Source: a virus. Taken from it: 28,912 nucleotides of DNA. The stretch spans positions 1 through 28,912 of IMG/VR virus record IMGVR_UViG_3300045922_000191; one strand, given 5' to 3'. A program made the translations under genes and the position numbers. This document shows positions 3,299-23,759 of the stretch, in pieces (the first letter of the stretch is position 1; each line of letters opens with the position of its first letter). Below the pieces are notes generated by a model. That model was given only the letters and a program-made list of their open reading frames with translations. It did no database searches and was not told the DNA's origin.

Positions 3299-3466
3299 GA
3301 CGGCGGGCACGCGGTGGTGATGTCACAAACAGACGACGCCGCAAGTGCAGTGGAACGTCACCCGCACCCGTTCGACGGGACGCCCACATGTCCCCCTTTG
3401 GAGGGGCCCGCGGCCGGCCCCGGGCATCGACGGGGGCCGCACCCACACGACCCGGAGGTTGTCCGG
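3299..3466 (+). other. Short non-coding or N-terminal-extension region before the nuclease gene
   Basis: The nuclease frame stays open through this stretch (starts at GTG 3314/3317 or ATG 3320). However, the encoded 49 residues are low-complexity, rich in Pro, Gly and His, and lack a good ribosome site. A GGAGG at 3454-3458 points to the later start at 3467. The stretch contains a small hairpin (CCCCT/AGGGG, 3393-3406). It may be a leader for the DNA metabolism operon or a disordered N-terminal tail. I see no convincing promoter. Confidence 0.35.
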
Positions 3467-4450
3467 GTGACCCGCACCGTCAGCCACTCGGAGCTGCGGA
3501 CGCTCACGGAGTGCCCCGCCCGGTGGGACTTCACCTACGGTGACCGCATGGCGGGGTCCAGCCTGGTGCCGCGCGTCACCGCACCGGTCCTGCGTGACGG
3601 GCGGGCGTGGGGGGCGGCTGTCGCCGCGTGGCACGCGACCGGCAGCGTCGCGGACGCGACCGACGCCCTGAACGCGGCGCTCGACGAGGACGCCGCCGGT
3701 GTGCGGGCGACTGGCGCGCCCGGCGACGGTGAACGCGACGCGACTGCTTCGAGACTCGGCGTGATCCTCCGGCATTACGCGGCGAGCGTGGCGCGCCTCG
3801 AGCTCGATGCACGTGAGCACGAGTTCGACGTGCCGGTGCGCACCGGTTGGCGGCTGCACGGCCGGTTCGACGGTTTGCACATCGACGCTGACGGCCGCGT
3901 GTGGATCGTCGAGTTCAAGTTGCGCCGCCGGCTGACGGACTTGGGGATGCTCGCGTTGGACCGTCAGGGGCGCCGGTACGCGTGGGCGTGGCGGGAGGCA
4001 ACCGGCGAGCAGCTCGCCGGCGTGATCGTCGACGAGACCCTCAACCAGGCGCCTCAGCCGCCGCGCGTGCTTGCGTCCGGCGCGACATCCCATGACGCCA
4101 GGCAGCACACCACCGCGGAATGGTATCTCGCGTCGTGCGCGGAGACCGGGACAGCCCCGTCGGTGAGGACGGTGGATGCGCTGCGTGCCCGCAAGTGGCA
4201 TCAGCGGCACCGTGTCACGTTCACCGCGTGGGAGCTGGAGGACACAGGCCGGGAGCTGGTGTCGTTGACTCGCCTCGTCGGGGACTTGGAGTCCGGGCGG
4301 ATCACCCCGTTCCGGGCGCCGTCCACCAGGACGTGCCCGGGGTGCCCGTTCCGGGATGTGTGCAACGACCCGCGCGACACCGGCGTGGTGGACGCGTTGT
4401 TCACCAGGACCCCCGCGAAACACCAGCGGCAGCTGCTCGCCGGCGGGTGA
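3467..4450 (+). CDS. PD-(D/E)XK nuclease, RecB/Cas4-like, with Fe-S type cysteines
   Basis: This 327-residue protein starts at a GTG eight bases after GGAGG. The family opening SHSELRTLTECPARW carries the first cysteine (C16). The nuclease core shows D135 in GRFDG, E149-x-K151 in WIVEFKL, and the RecB-type QxxxY (Q167, Y171). The C terminus has C290-x2-C293-x5-C299, which together with C16 matches the four-cysteine iron-sulfur cluster of Cas4 and AddB nucleases. It likely acts as a DNA exonuclease that resects ends for the Sak4-like annealing protein encoded directly downstream. There is no Cas1 or CRISPR in the window, so an adaptation role is unsupported. Starts as early as 3314 are possible. 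Confidence 0.8.
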   Translation: MTRTVSHSELRTLTECPARWDFTYGDRMAGSSLVPRVTAPVLRDGRAWGAAVAAWHATGSVADATDALNAALDEDAAGVRATGAPGDGERDATASRLGVILRHYAASVARLELDAREHEFDVPVRTGWRLHGRFDGLHIDADGRVWIVEFKLRRRLTDLGMLALDRQGRRYAWAWREATGEQLAGVIVDETLNQAPQPPRVLASGATSHDARQHTTAEWYLASCAETGTAPSVRTVDALRARKWHQRHRVTFTAWELEDTGRELVSLTRLVGDLESGRITPFRAPSTRTCPGCPFRDVCNDPRDTGVVDALFTRTPAKHQRQLLAGG

Positions 4451-4511
4451 GCGACTCGCACGCTGGAACACCAAGTTTCCATTCACCAGGTAAAGCAATG
4501 TTTGGAGGTGC
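4451..4511 (+). promoter_or_regulatory. Leader between nuclease and Sak4-like genes with strong ribosome binding site
   Basis: This 61-base gap is less GC-rich than its surroundings. It holds a short imperfect hairpin (GGAAC at 4465-4469 with GTTTCC at 4475-4480) and a very good TTGGAGGTG ribosome binding site at 4502-4510. It is one of the few real gaps in the genome, so a promoter or a translation-control element for the recombination genes is plausible. I could not find convincing -35 and -10 boxes. Confidence 0.3.
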
Positions 4512-5225
4512 GTGTTGCCACTGGAGTTCGTGAAACCAACCCCCGCCGGGTCGACGGCGAACTTCCTGTTGTACGGGCCGCCTGGCACCGGGAAAACCGT
4601 GGGTGCCACGTCAGCCCCAGGCCCGATCCTCGTCCTGAACGCGGAGGGGCCGGGTGGCCTCCGCAAGGCCCGGGAGATCCACGCCGGCACCGACATCCGT
4701 GAGGTCGCGGTGACCGGCAAGGACGTCCTTGACGCCTCGTACCTGTACGTGCGGGACGGCAACGGTGTCCGGACGGTTGTCGTGGACACGGTCGGTGAGG
4801 TGCACCGCGTCCTGCTGGAGGAGATCGGCGGTGACCGCCCGAGCCTGCAGGCGTGGGGCGACACCAACACGGTGGTGGAACGGTTCGTCCGCGCCCTCCG
4901 GGACCTGGACGTGAACCTTGTGCTGACCGCCCACGAGGAGGTGGTGGTGGACGGGACGACGGGTGAGACGATCCGGATGCCCGTCACCGGCGGCAAGAAA
5001 CTCCCGGGGTTGCTGATGGCGCAGGTGGACGTGGTCGCGTACACGGGGGTGGTGAGCGAGGAGGGGCGGGCAACCAGGTTCGTCGCGCAGCTCATCGACG
5101 GTGGCGGCCGCAGGTGCAAGGACCGGTCGGGGCGCCTGGGGGCGGTGAGGGACGTGAACCTCACGGAATGGCTGGCGGCGATGTCACCCGCCGGCGACGG
5201 CAACAACAACCGGAAGGCGGCGTGA
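4512..5225 (+). CDS. Sak4-like RecA-fold ATPase (putative single-strand annealing protein)
   Basis: This 237-residue protein has a Walker A motif GPPGTGKT at residues 22-29 and a Walker B strand RTVVVDT ending at D92. A later ATPase strand (VNLVLTAHEEVVV) and the PVTGGKKLPGLLMAQVDVVAY segment are typical of the AAA_24/Sak4 group of phage RecA-like proteins. Known Sak4 proteins anneal single-stranded DNA and are helped by a cognate SSB, and an SSB-like gene follows at once with a TGATG overlap. GTG 4512 and TTG 4515 are both reasonable starts after GGAGG. It probably drives recombination-dependent repair or replication with the upstream nuclease. Confidence 0.75.
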   Translation: MLPLEFVKPTPAGSTANFLLYGPPGTGKTVGATSAPGPILVLNAEGPGGLRKAREIHAGTDIREVAVTGKDVLDASYLYVRDGNGVRTVVVDTVGEVHRVLLEEIGGDRPSLQAWGDTNTVVERFVRALRDLDVNLVLTAHEEVVVDGTTGETIRMPVTGGKKLPGLLMAQVDVVAYTGVVSEEGRATRFVAQLIDGGGRRCKDRSGRLGAVRDVNLTEWLAAMSPAGDGNNNRKAA

Positions 5226-5656
5226 TGGCACCGATCAACGTGGATTTCACGGGGGTTGACCCCGTGGCGGAACCCGGGTCAGGACCCATCCCGGACGGCG
5301 AGTACCTGGTGGCGGTTGATGTCGCGCAGGAACGCACCAGCCAGCGGGGCACGCACGGCGTCGCGCTGCAGCTTCGGATCGTCGGTGGCCAGTTCGACGG
5401 GCGCCTGCTGTTCGACGATTTGTGGATCACCCCCGCCGCCCTCGGGTACGTCCTGCACCGGTTGCGGTGCCTGGGGATCGCGGTGCCCGCGGGACCGTTC
5501 ATCCTCGACCCGGAGAGGCTGGTGTCACGCCGCGCCCGCGTCGTCGTCCGGCAGGAGGAGGGCGCGGACGGGCGGGTCAGGGCGCGCGTGAAGGCGTGGC
5601 TGCCCGCCGCCGCCGGCGCCGCACCGGGGAACCCGGATGCGGACATTCCGTTCTGA
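5225..5656 (+). CDS. SSB-like single-stranded DNA-binding protein
   Basis: This 143-residue protein resembles the OB-like SSB group that accompanies Sak4 genes. It has an N-terminal PIPDGEYLVAVDVAQERTS strand, a LQLRIVGGQFDGRLLFDDLWI strand pair, a LHRLRCLGI helix and a basic RRARVVVRQEE strand. It ends in NPDADIPF, the acidic tail with terminal Phe through which SSBs contact partner proteins. ATG 5225 overlaps the ATPase stop. Role: coat single-stranded DNA and load the annealing protein. The base string at 5640-5650 that encodes part of this tail is identical to one iteron unit in the initiator gene. Confidence 0.7.
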   Translation: MAPINVDFTGVDPVAEPGSGPIPDGEYLVAVDVAQERTSQRGTHGVALQLRIVGGQFDGRLLFDDLWITPAALGYVLHRLRCLGIAVPAGPFILDPERLVSRRARVVVRQEEGADGRVRARVKAWLPAAAGAAPGNPDADIPF

Positions 5657-5886
5657 TGGGCGCCCCATCATGGGGTGAGTTGCGCCGGTTCCTGGACGGG
5701 GAGCACCCACCCGCGGTTGAGGGGCGCCTGCGGGCACGGTACGAAGAGGGCCAGGCGGAGCACGGCGACGACTGGACCACATGGCCGCCGGAGCGGTTCG
5801 CCCATGAAATCCAGCAGGAGATGGACGACATCACCATCTACGCCGCAATGCAACGGTACGCGGCCGCGGTGAGGCGGGGGCACTGA
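5656..5886 (+). CDS. Small MazG-like protein (possible nucleotide pyrophosphohydrolase relative)
   Basis: This 76-residue protein has the phrase RARYEEGQAEHGDDWTTW followed by the helix FAHEIQQEMDDITIYAAM. An E-x3-E-x2-D pattern with a following Tyr is the metal-binding helix seen in MazG/dUTPase-like phage enzymes. Only one such helix is clear, so the protein may be a minimal relative, work as a tetramer, or be non-catalytic. ATG 5656 overlaps the SSB stop. It would fit nucleotide-pool control during replication. Confidence 0.5.
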   Translation: MGAPSWGELRRFLDGEHPPAVEGRLRARYEEGQAEHGDDWTTWPPERFAHEIQQEMDDITIYAAMQRYAAAVRRGH

Positions 5887-6212
5887 TGCGTCACGGGCCG
5901 GAGGCGGAGTTCCAAGCCGCGGTCGTGCAGCTCGCCCGCCTGCGCCGCTGGCGGGTCGCGCACTTCCGGCCCGCCACCCTCACCAACGGCAAGACCATCA
6001 CGCCCGTCGCGGCGGACGGCGCCGGGTTCCCGGACCTGGTCCTCGCGAAACCCCGGGTGGGTGTCGTGTTCGCCGAACTGAAGGCGCGCCGCGGGCGCCT
6101 GTCCCCCGCCCAGACACAATGGGTTGAGTGCCTGCGGTCCGCCGGCGCCGAATGCCACGTGTGGACACCGGACGACTGGGACGTGATCGAACGCGTCCTC
6201 GCCGGGAGGTGA
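5886..6212 (+). CDS. VRR-NUC domain nuclease
   Basis: This 108-residue protein is a complete, stand-alone VRR-NUC fold: EAEFQAAVVQLARLRRW at the N terminus, the catalytic D50 in GAGFPDLVLA, E64-x-K66 in VFAELKARRGRLSP, and Q76 in the AQTQW helix. Family members are structure-specific nucleases of the PD-(D/E)XK group, including Holliday junction and flap cleavage enzymes. It probably resolves branched replication or recombination intermediates, or trims DNA for packaging. ATG 5886 overlaps the preceding stop. Confidence 0.85.
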   Translation: MRHGPEAEFQAAVVQLARLRRWRVAHFRPATLTNGKTITPVAADGAGFPDLVLAKPRVGVVFAELKARRGRLSPAQTQWVECLRSAGAECHVWTPDDWDVIERVLAGR

Positions 6213-6433: not shown

Positions 6434-6666
6434 CAACCCTTGACGGGGACCCGGTTGCCGTCCCCACCGACCTGGACGCGGACGACGCGCTCCGCCTGAT
6501 CCGCCGGCGCTCCGACGCGCAGCTCGCGCGCGCGGTGCTGGTGGTCGCCGCCCACGTCCGCCACCTGAGGGAGGAGCGGGACGCGCTCATGGACTTGAAC
6601 ACGCAGATGCACCACGAGCTGGTGAACCGCGACATGGGGTTTGACGACACGCGAGGAGGCCCGTGA
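6430..6666 (+). CDS. Small coiled-coil protein upstream of the initiator, function unknown
   Basis: This 78-residue protein starts at a GTG overlapping the zinc-ribbon stop. It is mostly helical (DADDALRLIRRRSDAQLARA and VRHLREERDALMDLNTQMHH). No motif identifies it. Its place immediately before the initiator, with overlapping stop and start, suggests a replication accessory role, but that is inference. Confidence 0.5.
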   Translation: MTTLDGDPVAVPTDLDADDALRLIRRRSDAQLARAVLVVAAHVRHLREERDALMDLNTQMHHELVNRDMGFDDTRGGP

Positions 6667-7316
6667 TGGGCATGGAATGGTTCAAGATAACTGCGGGGTT
6701 CTGGTCACACCCGAAGATCATCGGCCTGTCGGACAGGGCGTACCGGGTGTTGACGTCCAGCTGGGGTTACGCCGCGCAGCACGGCACTGGTGGCAGGATC
6801 AACCGGGCGGCGCTCCGCGTGATCGGCGGGTCAGCGGGAACAGCGGGGCAGCTGGTCCGCGCAGGCCTGTGGCACCCGGACGGCGACGGATGGGTCATCC
6901 ACGATTGGGATGACCACCAGGAGGCTGCGGTCGCCATTGAGGAACGCCGCAGACGAGACCGTGAACGCAAACAAAACGAGCGCAGCGTCCGTGGAATGTC
7001 CGCGGACATTCCACGGACATTCCACGGACAGTCCGAGGACATTCCAAGCGAACCGTCCGCGGACATTCCAAGCGAACCGTCCGCGGACATTCCGCGCAGA
7101 GAAGAGAAGAGAAGAGAAGAGAAGAGAAGAGAACCCCCCCAAACCCCCCCTTCCCAAAACGACGCGGACCCGCCACCATGGGAACGCACACCAGGACGCG
7201 GCCGCCCAACCCTCGCCGAACAGATCGCTCGCGCCGAACAGCTCGTCGCCCGTCACACCGTCAACGGCAGAATCGTCTACGATCCCACCCGTGACCCCGA
7301 CCCTGAACGCGGCTGA
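6666..7316 (+). CDS. Replication initiator-like protein with iteron-containing linker
   Basis: This 216-residue protein has the N-terminal winged-helix domain of phage replication initiators: MEWFKITAGFWSHPKIIGLS, LVRAGLWHP and WVIHDWDDHQ, about residues 1-90. Next come a basic helix (EERRRRDRERKQNERS), a repetitive linker at residues 108-156 (ADIP-containing repeats, then a REEKR repeat), and a short C-terminal part (RPTLAEQIARAEQLVARH). GAGGAGG ends six bases before the ATG; GTG 6663 is an alternative. The linker DNA holds iteron-like repeats, as lambda O holds its own origin. It probably binds them and recruits the downstream helicase loader. Confidence 0.75.
   Translation: MGMEWFKITAGFWSHPKIIGLSDRAYRVLTSSWGYAAQHGTGGRINRAALRVIGGSAGTAGQLVRAGLWHPDGDGWVIHDWDDHQEAAVAIEERRRRDRERKQNERSVRGMSADIPRTFHGQSEDIPSEPSADIPSEPSADIPRREEKRREEKRREPPQTPPSQNDADPPPWERTPGRGRPTLAEQIARAEQLVARHTVNGRIVYDPTRDPDPERG
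6987..7094 (+). repeat. Iteron-like repeat array with 32-bp perfect palindrome (candidate origin)
   Basis: The unit CGGACATTCCA occurs at 7003-7013 and 7014-7024. Variants follow at 7025-7035 and 7036-7046, then further copies at 7060-7070 and 7084-7094 (last base G). The spacing is 11, 11, 11, 24 and 24 bases. An inverted copy lies at 6992-7002, and bases 6987-7018 form a perfect 32-bp palindrome centred between 7002 and 7003. The array lies inside the initiator gene, in frame, and is followed by a purine tract. This is the arrangement of a lambda-type origin. Function is inferred, not shown. Confidence 0.75.
7098..7133 (+). repeat. 36-base pure purine tract of AGAAG repeats
   Basis: Seven tandem five-base units give an uninterrupted A/G run next to the last iteron, encoding a REEKR repeat. 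A pyrimidine-rich stretch with two C7 runs (7134-7140 and 7144-7150) follows. It is less GC-rich than its surroundings and may serve as the unwinding region of the origin, or form unusual DNA structure. Confidence 0.7.
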
Positions 7317-7899
7317 CACCACTCACTGGATCCGCAGGCTCATGGCCGCCTGGCCCATCCCCGCCTGGGACCACGACCGCACCAGCGGTTACCTCGACGC
7401 CATGGCGGGCGCCGAGGACCGGCACGTCAACGCCGCCATCGACCGGCTCATCCGCGGCGGGTGGCGCAGCAACTTCCCCCCCGCCGGCCCAACCCTCCGG
7501 CTCATCGTCGACGAAATCGCCCGCACCGAAGCCGACGAACGCCGACGCCAAGCCGACGCCGCCGCGCGCCGCGAACAGGACGGACGGGCCGCCGGCCCCT
7601 GGCACCCGCTCCTCTGGAGCGCCTGGCAACACCTCGAAAACAACCAGCCCATCCCAACCGAACTCCAGCCCTACGCCGACATCGTCCGCCGCCACAACCT
7701 CACCCCCGAGGACGCCGGCGTCCGGGAACACGGCGGACCCAACCACGGCCTCTGGACCGACCGGGACGCCATCACCACCACCTGGCGCGACGCCGTCACC
7801 GAAGCCGAACGGGTGTGGCGAACCACCGGAGACCACGCCAGCGCCCAACGCGCCGCACGCGCACTCATCGACGGGACCGCCACACCAACCAGGATGTGA
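7291..7899 (+). CDS. G39P-like replicative helicase loader candidate
   Basis: This 202-residue protein starts at a GTG overlapping the initiator end by 26 bases; longer versions in this frame only overlap the initiator. The N-terminal helical domain matches helicase loader/inhibitor proteins of the SPP1 G39P type: THWIRRLMAAWPIP, a LDAMAGAEDRHVNAAIDRLI helix, then GGWRSNFPPAGPTLRLIVDE. A charged helix (ADERRRQADAAARREQ) and a C-terminal helical part follow. It would load the host replicative helicase at the origin defined by the initiator. The initiator-loader pairing mirrors lambda O and P. Confidence 0.65.
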   Translation: MTPTLNAADTTHWIRRLMAAWPIPAWDHDRTSGYLDAMAGAEDRHVNAAIDRLIRGGWRSNFPPAGPTLRLIVDEIARTEADERRRQADAAARREQDGRAAGPWHPLLWSAWQHLENNQPIPTELQPYADIVRRHNLTPEDAGVREHGGPNHGLWTDRDAITTTWRDAVTEAERVWRTTGDHASAQRAARALIDGTATPTRM

Positions 7900-8162
7900 C
7901 CGTGGCCCAGTGGCGCGTCGGACCAGGCGGCACCCTCACCCCACTCCACGCACCGCGCCGCGACCCGCGCACCAGCAGACGCCACCAGCAGGCCCGCGCC
8001 CGCGCCATCGCCAAACAACCCTGGTGCTCGAGGTGCGGGGCGACAACCGACCTGCAACTCGACCACATCACCCCACTCGACGCAGGCGGCCACCCCCACA
8101 ACCCCGCCAACCACCAGGTCCTCTGCGGAACCTGCAACCGCGCCAAACACAACCGCCAATGA
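7896..8162 (+). CDS. HNH endonuclease next to the terminase genes
   Basis: This 88-residue protein has the full HNH pattern: C44-x2-C47 (WCSRCG), D56-H57 in LQLDHITPLDAGG, N72-H73 in NPANHQ, and C77-x2-C80 in LCGTCN followed by RAKH. The cysteines make a structural zinc site, and the His/Asn residues are the metal-dependent active site. HNH proteins next to terminase genes, such as HK97 gp74, are needed for cos cleavage and packaging, and that is the likely role here. GTG 7896 overlaps the loader stop; GTG 7902 is an alternative. Confidence 0.85.
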   Translation: MTVAQWRVGPGGTLTPLHAPRRDPRTSRRHQQARARAIAKQPWCSRCGATTDLQLDHITPLDAGGHPHNPANHQVLCGTCNRAKHNRQ

Positions 8163-20520: not shown

Positions 20521-20701
20521 CGCGTTCATTGTCGACCGCGACCTGGCGGAGCTGCTCGCTGAGGCAGACGCCGCCGAACAGCAGCATTATGCTGATGGTG
20601 CGGTGACGTCACCCGGGGGATCATGGGGTGGCAGCGTGAGTGGCAGCCCGCCACCCGACCCGAACCTCCCGTGGGCCCCGGGGCACGGGCCGGGGGACTG
20701 A
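20507..20701 (+). CDS. Second tail chaperone-like ORF
   Basis: This 64-residue frame can start at GTG 20507, overlapping the previous gene by 14 bases. It reads SAFIVDRDLAELLAEADAAE followed by a Gly/Pro-rich tail. In phages a second chaperone is commonly made by ribosomal frameshift from the first. Here the needed shift would be +1 or -2, and the usual -1 frame is not coding-like, so independent initiation is equally possible. Its stop overlaps nothing and lies two bases before the tape measure start. Confidence 0.5.
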   Translation: MASVSAFIVDRDLAELLAEADAAEQQHYADGAVTSPGGSWGGSVSGSPPPDPNLPWAPGHGPGD

Positions 20702-20702
20702 A

Positions 20703-23700
20703 ATGGCGCGCGGACGCAACCCACGGATCTACATCGAGGGTGACGCCGATGGCGTGAAGCGCGCGTCACGTGAAGCGGAGACCGCCGTCTCCCGTCTCAG
20801 TCACGCGGGGACGCGCGCGTTCGGGGGGATGCGCGCCGCGGCGCTCGCCGCCGGCGTCGCGTTCACCGCCCTCACCGCGGGTGTCGCCAAGTTCGGTGTG
20901 AGCGCCGTCAAAGCCGCCCAGGAAGCGGAGGCGTCCAACGCGAAGGTCCGGCGGATGGTCGACACCGCCGGCGTGGCGTGGGACAAGTACGGCGAGAAAA
21001 TCGACAAGGCGATCCAGGCGCAGTCCCGCCGCTTCAAGATGGACGATGAGGCGCTCGCCGAGTCGTTCGGGAACATGCTCCGCACGACGGGGGACGTGAA
21101 CAAGGCCCTGGCGCTCAACGTGACCGCCGTCGATATTGCGCGTGCCAAGAACATTCAACTCGCGGATGCGCAGTCGATGCTCGCCCGCGTCTACAACGGG
21201 TCGTTCCTGAGTCTCCGCAAACTGGGGATCCAGTTCGAGCCGGTCACGAAAGCCCAGGACAAACTCAAGGAGTCCGGGCGTGCCTACACCGAGCAGCAAC
21301 TGGAGCAGGCGAAAGCCGCGGACAAGGTCGCGTCACGTGAGGCGGCGCTCGCCGCCATCAGGCAGAGGTTCGCGGGCCAAGGGGACGCGTACGCGCAGAC
21401 GACGAAAGGAAAAATCGAGGGTTTCCAGGTCGCGTGGGAGAACCTCCAGGAGACGATCGGCGCCCGCCTGCTGCCCGCCGTCGGCGACGCGTTCGACGCG
21501 ATGGCCGGGGGCATCAAAACCGTCACGGACGAGTGGCCGAAGATCGAACGGGCGATCGCACCGGTCATCGAAGCGTTCGGTTCGAAACTAGGTGCCGCTG
21601 TCGCCGGGTTCTCCAACGCCGCCCGGCGGGCGTTCCCGGTGGTCGCCGACATCATCGGACAGGTGCGCGCCCCGATCGCCGCGACCGTCGCGAACCTGTC
21701 GAGGCTGTGGGGTGCCCTCGCTGAGGACGGCGCTCGCGCGTTCCGCCGGCTTGCCCCCGTCGTCGGCCCCCTGATGCGGGAAATCCTGAAAACAGTCCAG
21801 TCGGTCATTGCGCTTATCACCGCGGTGTGGGTGCGGTGGGGTGACGAGATCACCACCGTTGTCGTCACTGCCTTGCGTGCGGTGGCCGCGGTGATGCGCC
21901 CCGCATTGCAGGTCATCCGCGGTGTCCTCGTGGCTGTGACCGCCGTCATCGACGGTGATTGGTCAAAGGCGTGGGGCGGCATGACAACCGTTGTGCGCGG
22001 CGCCATCAACTTGGTGCTCGCCATGCTGCGCGCCGTTCCCGCACGGATGGCGGGCGCGGCCGTCGCGATCGGGACGTCGCTCATCAGCAAAATCGGGTCC
22101 GGGTTGCGGCAGCTCCCGGCGACACTCGCCGCGATCATCGGTGCGGCGATCCGGGCGATCCCCGGTCTGATCGCCGACGCCGCCATCAACGCCGGGAAGG
22201 CGCTCGGCCGGCAGTTCGCGGACGGTTTGCGTTCCGTCGCTGGTGGCCTCGCCGGCGCCCTCAACCCGTTCTCGTCAGGTGGCTTCATTGGTGGCCCTGG
22301 CCCGAGGGACGTTGATTCCCGCCTGGTGCTCGCCCGCCCCGACGAGGTGATCCTCACCCCGCAGCAGCAGCGCCTCGTTGAGTCCGGTGTGAGCATCACC
22401 CACGCGCTCGCCATGACCGGCGGGAAGGTTCAGCGGTTCTCCACCGGCGGGTGGGTTGACGCCGCATACCGGTTCGCGCGAGCCCAGGTCGGGAAGGGCT
22501 ACACGCCGGGCGGCACAGGTAGAGGGGAACGGACCGGGCCGAACTTTTGGGACTGTTCGGGGTTCGCCACCTATGTCGCCGCCCAGGTCCCCGGGTTCCG
22601 CGGCACGAAGGGCGGGACTACGTTCAGTGAGTTCCCGATCAGCAAACCCGCCAGGGGTGATGAACCCATCGTTTATGGGTTCCGGTCGTGGGGGCGGTCG
22701 CGGTTCGGCACCGGGTACCAGCACATGGGAATCCGGGTGAAAGGCGTGTGGTTCGACGCGGGTTCCGGTGGTGTGGAGGTTGGTGACTCACGGTGGGATG
22801 TGCTGCGTGTCCCCGCCGGCTTGGAGCGGCTCCGCGGCACGGGTGACCCCGCGAGCGACGTCGACCCGACACCCGCCACCGGGAACCGCACTGTGGCGGA
22901 CCGGCGTGACCTGGCTGCGGACCGGCGTGACCTGGCTGCGGACCGGCGTAACCTGGCTGCGGCCCTGCGCGTCGGCCGGGCGCTTTTGAGGTTCCGGCCG
23001 TCGACGCCCTGGTCAGCGTCTGATGCCATCACCGCCCGCCACCGCGACGATTCGCTCCAGGACAAGCAGGTGGGTGCCGCCGCCGAACAGGCGGCCCGCG
23101 GCGCGGGGATCACGAACCCGGACAAACTCGATGCGATCCGCCAGCAGGCGGTGCGGGCGGCCCGCATCCGTGAGCTGCAGGACGATCGCAGGGACCTCAT
23201 CGCGGAACGCGGCCGCCACAACCGGACGATCACTGGCCTCAAGCGCGCCCGGAAGGCCGCGTTCGCGTCGCTCCGCAAGACCCGTGGTGCCGAGAACCGC
23301 CGCAGGGTCCTGGACCGCATCCGTGACCTGAACAGGCAGTTGCAGGACGCGTGGGATGCGCGAACCGCTGTTGACCGTGAGATCGCCGACGTCGACGCGC
23401 AGCTCGCCGAACTCGGGTGGGATCAGGCACAAACCGCGCAGGAAATTATGAGTCTGCCGGACAACCCCACAGCCGCGGCGGAGACCACCCCCACGGACAC
23501 AGGTGTTGTCAACCAGCCCGCGGAGCTGACGCCGGAGCAACGCGCCCGGATCAACACCGGCATCCTGGCGGAGGAGTTCATCCGGACGGCGTTCGGGCCG
23601 GGGGACATTGGAGTCGGGGGGCGCAACGCGATCACCGCCGCAACCGGTGGCAGGTTCGTGACGATCCGCGTGGACGCGTCGAGTTTCGCGCGCGCGGTCG

Positions 23701-23759
23701 GCGCGAGCGTTGACGGGCAGGCGAGCACGCCGGCAACCCTCGTCCCGTCGGGAGCGTGA
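20703..23759 (+). CDS. Tape measure protein with embedded NlpC/P60 hydrolase domain
   Basis: This 1018-residue protein is the longest gene. It has an N-terminal phage tail domain (RNPRIYIEGDADGVKRASRE) with a hydrophobic helix near residues 45-60, and the YNGSFLSLRKLGIQFEPVTK region typical of tape measure proteins. Repeated hydrophobic helices follow in the middle. An NlpC/P60-type peptidase domain lies at about residues 580-710: C618 in FWDCSGFATY and H674 in YQHMGIRV. A triple repeat, DRRDLAA (about 732-752), precedes a long coiled coil and a C-terminal domain. It sets tail length, and the hydrolase would open peptidoglycan at DNA entry. ATG 20703 is right after the chaperone stop. Confidence 0.9.
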   Translation: MARGRNPRIYIEGDADGVKRASREAETAVSRLSHAGTRAFGGMRAAALAAGVAFTALTAGVAKFGVSAVKAAQEAEASNAKVRRMVDTAGVAWDKYGEKIDKAIQAQSRRFKMDDEALAESFGNMLRTTGDVNKALALNVTAVDIARAKNIQLADAQSMLARVYNGSFLSLRKLGIQFEPVTKAQDKLKESGRAYTEQQLEQAKAADKVASREAALAAIRQRFAGQGDAYAQTTKGKIEGFQVAWENLQETIGARLLPAVGDAFDAMAGGIKTVTDEWPKIERAIAPVIEAFGSKLGAAVAGFSNAARRAFPVVADIIGQVRAPIAATVANLSRLWGALAEDGARAFRRLAPVVGPLMREILKTVQSVIALITAVWVRWGDEITTVVVTALRAVAAVMRPALQVIRGVLVAVTAVIDGDWSKAWGGMTTVVRGAINLVLAMLRAVPARMAGAAVAIGTSLISKIGSGLRQLPATLAAIIGAAIRAIPGLIADAAINAGKALGRQFADGLRSVAGGLAGALNPFSSGGFIGGPGPRDVDSRLVLARPDEVILTPQQQRLVESGVSITHALAMTGGKVQRFSTGGWVDAAYRFARAQVGKGYTPGGTGRGERTGPNFWDCSGFATYVAAQVPGFRGTKGGTTFSEFPISKPARGDEPIVYGFRSWGRSRFGTGYQHMGIRVKGVWFDAGSGGVEVGDSRWDVLRVPAGLERLRGTGDPASDVDPTPATGNRTVADRRDLAADRRDLAADRRNLAAALRVGRALLRFRPSTPWSASDAITARHRDDSLQDKQVGAAAEQAARGAGITNPDKLDAIRQQAVRAARIRELQDDRRDLIAERGRHNRTITGLKRARKAAFASLRKTRGAENRRRVLDRIRDLNRQLQDAWDARTAVDREIADVDAQLAELGWDQAQTAQEIMSLPDNPTAAAETTPTDTGVVNQPAELTPEQRARINTGILAEEFIRTAFGPGDIGVGGRNAITAATGGRFVTIRVDASSFARAVGASVDGQASTPATLVPSGA
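22896..22958 (+). repeat. Triple 21-bp in-frame repeat inside the tape measure gene
   Basis: GCGGACCGGCGTGACCTGGC recurs at 21-base spacing three times, with one base changed in the last copy (GTAACC for GTGACC). Each copy encodes seven residues, ADRRDLA. It lies between the hydrolase domain and the coiled coil and could vary in copy number. Confidence 0.85.

Follow-up and report, generated by a model that had tools for sequence, protein, structure and literature searches.

The locus considered here raises the question of where a phage begins to replicate its DNA, and of what determines the repeats found at that place. The DNA is a viral contig of 28,912 bases (IMG/VR record IMGVR_UViG_3300045922_000191), the whole of which is termed the window. 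A gene with the properties of a replication initiator displays an array of short repeats in its interior, and a sequence-only reading had taken this array to be an initiator-bound origin. Comparison with related phages supports that proposal by co-variation of the repeat motif with a helix of the protein, by conserved position, and by the published origin of a remote homologue. The replication origin is most probably the linker-coding part of the phage's own initiator gene, comprising the iterons and the tract described below.

Initiator Gene and Protein

The open reading frame at positions 6666–7316 (plus strand) is identified by profile search as a phage replication initiation protein (phrog_3926). 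Its product matches the PHROG 3926 and 2447 profiles with E-values of 1.9e-29 and 6.7e-26, respectively, which places it in the family, and its N-terminal domain is found in 136 phage records. The start is uncertain and may be GTG 6663, ATG 6666 or ATG 6672. A nucleotide search for the locus among phages gave no match.

AlphaFold2 predicts a winged-helix N-terminal domain (residues 11–80 counted from ATG 6666, positions 6696–6905, plus strand) with block-mean pLDDT of at least 90 and the order helix-strand-helix-helix-strand-strand. A Foldseek search with this domain against the PDB returned nearest structures, none of which is significant. In the model the winged helix is followed by a long basic helix (residues 88–112) and then by a flexible linker. 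The basic helix contains the segment D-R-E-R-K (positions 6957–6971, plus strand), predicted by information, k-mer and pair tests to be the DNA-reading stretch. Upstream of the gene, at 3314–6212, are recombination genes for a PD-(D/E)XK exonuclease, a Sak4-like annealing protein and a VRR-NUC nuclease.

Iteron Array and Palindrome

The array encompasses positions 6982–7093, in the DNA that codes for the linker of the initiator. GGACATTCC or close variants begin at 6993 (inverted), 7004, 7015, 7026, 7037, 7061 and 7085, and weak units are at 6982, 7050 and 7074. Expressed as CGGACATTCCA, the units are at 6992 (minus orientation), 7003, 7014, 7025 (two mismatches), 7036 (one mismatch), 7060 and 7084 (one mismatch). 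The seven 11-bp units or variants first reported, one inverted and six direct with spacings of 11, 11, 11, 24 and 24, are thus present, and they exceed expectation: the top 9-mer of positions 6901–7140 occurs six times, and five or more occurrences were seen in none of 2000 dinucleotide shuffles. The weaker units at 7050 and 7074, of sequence GAACCGTCC, occupy the two 24-base gaps, and therefore the array follows an 11–13 bp lattice throughout.

The units had also been described as lying in frame with the gene, but not all of them do so. Their starts are in codon phases 2, 1, 0, 2, 2 and 2, such that one DNA word encodes differing peptides. Since all three codon phases are represented, the constraint acts on the DNA. 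A near-identical contig (L002) has exactly one additional 24-bp unit, and the rest of the aligned region is identical.

Positions 6987–7018 form a perfect 32-bp palindrome, as previously noted, made up of one inverted and one direct unit with their flanks. It is the longest palindrome of the window; the runner-up is 18 bp.

The Array in Related Phages

Domain searches provided the 136 phage records together with loci from viral contigs and bacterial genomes, and 144 non-redundant loci, the window included, were compared. An array phased at 11/12 bp is found at the same place in these loci, with a motif that differs by phage. Autocorrelation directly after the domain gives z = 8.8 at lag 11 and z = 13.1 at lag 12, plus harmonics. 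Half-sites among the phages are GTCAC, GTTCG, GTAAC, GTCCC, GTCCG, AAGCA and TGGCA. Their geometry is common to the family, i.e. half-sites of the same orientation are 11–12 bp apart, convergent ones 7–8 and divergent ones 15–16. Because of this shared geometry, the palindrome and the mixed 11/24 spacing of the window, at first considered unusual, are ordinary for the family.

The comparison of the array among relatives, proposed with the original reading, shows that its position is conserved and that its motif co-varies with the protein helix. Relatives that lack the repeats and keep the linker, which would speak against an origin, were not seen. In locus L017 the initiator gene stops short of the linker, and the repeats are retained nonetheless, the whole array being situated between genes.

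Members of the same family include the actinophage proteins named "RepA-like replication initiator" or replication initiation protein, e.g. those of Appavirus Phonegingi and Gordonia phage BritBrat, with array and tract at the same place as in the window. The actinophage loci mostly have CCCGA-type pentamers and often a hairpin, whereas in the window the pentamers are of purines, a C7-A3-C7 tract is present and the hairpin is missing. Dense arrays resembling GGACATTCC were also observed in low-GC DNA at L177, L178 and L180, one of them beside CCGTAA-type repeats; an initiator helix was not found near these arrays.

Two Helix Residues and the Iteron Motif

The excess information on the iteron motif is 1.08 bits at alignment column 96 and 1.47 bits at column 100 (numbered from ATG 6672); all other aligned columns have 0.53 bits or less. 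The two columns are four residues apart in the basic helix and correspond to the first and last residues of D-R-E-R-K, so that the window has the pair D,K.

Residue pairs were examined with k-mers derived de novo for each pair and with no preset motif classes. Pair A,M goes with GTTCG in 23 of 23 loci (6 of 120 elsewhere) and pair A,Q with GTCAC in 19 of 19 (16/124 elsewhere). GTCCC is found in 10 of the 12 loci with E,K (3/131 elsewhere), GTAAC in all six with T,V (4/137), and AGCAA in seven of eight with R,G (1/135). The pair of the window, D,K, is associated with GTCCG/CGGAC in 3/3 loci as against 1/140 elsewhere.

At domain identities below 40%, a common motif is found in 16 of 16 pairs having the same residues and in 15 of 248 having different residues, the pairs not being mutually independent. 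Conversely, L022 and L102 have domains that are 86% identical, yet they differ in the residue (Q/M) and in the motif (GTCAC/GTTCG). Because the link holds below 40% identity and these two loci differ, shared ancestry is not a simple explanation. The tree of the 84-residue domain has too few supported branches for a formal independent-contrast test.

Two initiators found solely by a DNA search for the repeat of the window, L181 (ERTRK) and L183 (ERARK), have helices that fit the E/D..K rule. Most contigs that share GGACATTCCNNGGACATTCC show no matching helix near the repeat; they look unrelated and were set aside. In the sequences compared, two helix residues predict the iteron motif across about 180 related phages, and the initiator very probably binds the repeats of the array.

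Pentanucleotide Tract, C-rich Tract and Hairpin

The purine tract noted after the array is present at 7098–7133. It is here recognized as a separate conserved element of period 5, (AGAGA/AGAAG)7, with 100% period 5 and a lag-5 identity of 0.94, its position and period being as in relatives. It is followed at 7134–7155 by a C-rich tract, CCCCCCCAAACCCCCCCTTCCC, which by sequence motif is a potential G-quadruplex on the bottom strand.

Tandem repeats, mostly with units of five bases, are enriched about 1000-fold after the domain: period-5 repeats number 75 in the 46 kb made up of the 320 bases following the domain, while 674 kb from other parts of these loci contain a single one. The units in relatives are mostly CCCGA, CCCGT or CCCAT, and some have period 6 (CCCGTA). 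Copy numbers are 3–7 and are not confined to multiples of 3. At eight loci the C-rich motif lies past the stop codon of the initiator.

In actinophage tracts the CCC is constant and the spacer variable. The G-quadruplex motif (C3+N1-7)x4 is found after the domain on the coding strand in 113/144 loci and on the opposite strand in 2, where shuffles give 5.9 and other windows 2.9%. Although strong in actinophages, the motif is absent from AGAAG/AGTAT tracts, and a G-quadruplex was accordingly demoted as an explanation for the tract in general.

A hairpin often follows the actinophage tract, significantly so, with a stem of at least 8 in 35 of 113 loci compared with 1.1 when shuffled, and with loops TAAC, TGAC or TAAA. 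Post-tract hairpins at L009, L021, L031, L055, L104, L114 and others have variable perfect stems and near-constant loops (TAAC, TGAC, TAAA, TAC) closed by C-G. On the bottom strand the loops read GTTA, GTCA and GTA, which we take to be similar to the GNNA/GNA class of extra-stable DNA loops. No hairpin of the actinophage type follows the tract in the window, and no significant hairpin was detected in the set of Tuc2009-Rep relatives; the hairpin was therefore rejected as part of a general module.

Relationship to Known Origins

In-gene iteron origins are already known. The Rep protein of Tuc2009 binds direct repeats within its own gene, and these repeats act as ori (PMC8965321); the Tuc2009 record annotates the rep gene as "contains origin of replication". 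This protein (ORF16), of the P335 lactococcal phages, has a winged-helix-like N-domain and is a remote homologue of the family of the window. An hhalign comparison of the Tuc2009 and actinophage N-domains gives a probability of 88.4 and an E-value of 2.8e-6 for this single comparison, which indicates domain homology; the Pfam family Phage_rep_org_N matches the window protein below threshold only.

The Tuc2009 gene displays 11-bp-phased iterons and then a pentamer tract (AGGAT/AGGTT/AGGTA), both inside the gene as in the window; its repeats are followed by AGGATAGGATAGGAGAGGTTAGG... Thus the window shares with Tuc2009 the direct repeats inside the cognate gene and a pentamer tract directly after the iterons, the latter being a common trait recognized here. 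Among 36 non-redundant Tuc2009-Rep relatives, lag-5 identity is 0.715 as compared to 0.465 in shuffled sequences, with lags 4 and 6–9 at background, and one locus of this set (L230) carries the AGAAG unit of the window. Tuc2009 differs in its low-GC host, in its iteron motif and in the G pairs of its purine pentamers; in the window the protein is shorter, and (AGAAG)7 is accompanied by the C-rich tract.

Lambda O and ori-lambda likewise have iterons in the initiator gene and then a strand-asymmetric tract, and lambda as well as many relatives of the window initiator show an inverted repeat after the tract. However, ori-lambda has four iterons of roughly 20 bp, 20–24 apart, and an AT-rich purine tract with no clear five-base period. 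An AT-rich tract is not found downstream of the iterons in the window, where (AGAAG)7 is followed by the GC-rich C7-A3-C7-T2-C3. The hhalign comparison of lambda O with the window N-domain detected no homology (probability 0.56). The term lambda-type origin therefore stands as an analogy only; the closer relative whose origin has been mapped is Tuc2009 Rep. From these comparisons, the best reading of the locus is a replisome-organiser type of in-gene iteron origin, for which the lambda ori is an analogue and not a homologue. Since neither TP901-1, which also has an in-gene origin, nor lambda shows a clear five-base tract, the tract is not needed in all in-gene origins.

A further parallel is found in the DnaA-trios and DnaD recognition element of the B. 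subtilis oriC, where an element of short period adjoins the double-strand boxes of the initiator and is read as a single strand (PMC10201434). The trios have a three-base register and the motif TnnT, while tracts of the window type have a five-base period; no sequence or protein homology between them is apparent. For RepA phages, Wetzel et al. 2020 (PMC7157519) could only suggest that the origin is located within repA or close to it, and they did not find repeats; that RepA is not equated here with the present family.

Downstream Gene and Neighboring Features

The next gene (7291–7899, plus strand) is a candidate helicase loader by position only. Profile searches gave no family match, and the earlier call of this gene as a helicase loader candidate is not confirmed. 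The positional counterpart in L017 has a weak match to Inhibitor_G39P (E = 0.11), and the two products are not detectably alike.

From 7000 to about 8165 the GC skew is strongly negative (-0.15 to -0.33) and the AT skew positive (mostly +0.2 to +0.6). This block covers the array together with the genes for the candidate loader and for a putative HNH protein, and the signs flip abruptly at about 8170. Skew was discarded as evidence for an origin, for the block is sharp in the window but the family-wide change is only local. The small open reading frame at 7901–8162, just before the small terminase gene, has paired Cys motifs and DHI..LD..GH and resembles an HNH endonuclease; no family match was obtained at the thresholds used. 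A 21-bp tandem repeat of 3.5 copies was observed at 22896–22969, in a 1039-codon open reading frame (20640–23759) that is possibly the tape-measure gene.

Proposed Origin and Alternative Readings

The comparison supports well the initiator family, the array, the co-variation of residues and motif, the position, and the DNA-level conservation of array and tract. From these we infer a series of steps. Initiator molecules would bind the GGAC/GTCC half-sites at 6982–7093 via the basic helix (DRERK, with its D..K pair). Being in helical phase, the bound initiators would form a nucleoprotein coil, and the coil would open the duplex downstream, in the pentamer/C-rich tract at 7098–7155. One strand of the tract is probably engaged by the initiator or the loader in a register of five bases, and loading of the host helicase would take place at the opened tract.

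The tract might instead open the same origin by adopting a non-B structure on one strand, for example a G-quadruplex, in place of register reading. The strand bias of the quadruplex motif in the 144 loci, the constant CCC with its varying spacer, and the presence of CCCCCCCAAACCCCCCCTTCCC in the window are all in accordance with this; however, Tuc2009-type tracts such as AGAAG/AGTAT and the AGAAG repeat of the window have no G-runs and still keep period 5. The folding explanation is thus possible, but we regard it as unlikely, and the five-base register is favored as the general rule because the tracts without G-runs keep that period.

Many initiators also autoregulate, and the array could be an operator by which the initiator represses its own operon, with the origin elsewhere. 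Co-variation indicates no more than a very probable binding of the repeats by the protein, which would suit an operator as well. Yet the array is at least 300 bases inside the gene and not at the promoter, the tandem tract next to it shows conservation alongside the array, and the repeats of the Tuc2009 homologue are published as ori (PMC8965321); an operator function with a distant origin is accordingly quite improbable. The least credible explanation, to which we give hardly any weight, is that the repeats are neutral or of significance for the protein only, i.e. slippage-prone linker DNA for a disordered, proline/arginine-rich spacer. The linker is of low complexity, and the 24-bp unit that distinguishes L002 from the window is in frame. 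Against this, the array units are in three frames, neither the period of 5 nor the copy numbers follow multiples of 3, the tract or array is past the stop codon in the eight loci and in L017, and the motif tracks the helix residues. The in-gene origin with iterons and tract is the reading retained.

Significance

No earlier description of the residue code or of the shared pentamer tract was found in the limited literature searched, and both look to be undescribed. Tentatively, phage origins of this class may share a pentanucleotide tract, comparable in phages to the DnaA-trios, of which one strand is read by the initiator or loader in a five-base register, together with an x1-R-x-R-x2 helix code that sets a predictable iteron sequence; we put this combined proposal forward with less than even confidence. 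To our knowledge, the origin has yet to be mapped in most actinobacterial phages. Array, tract and residue code together allow origins to be located from the sequence in many phages and prophages, and the specificity of initiators and the opening of origins in high-GC DNA become directly testable.
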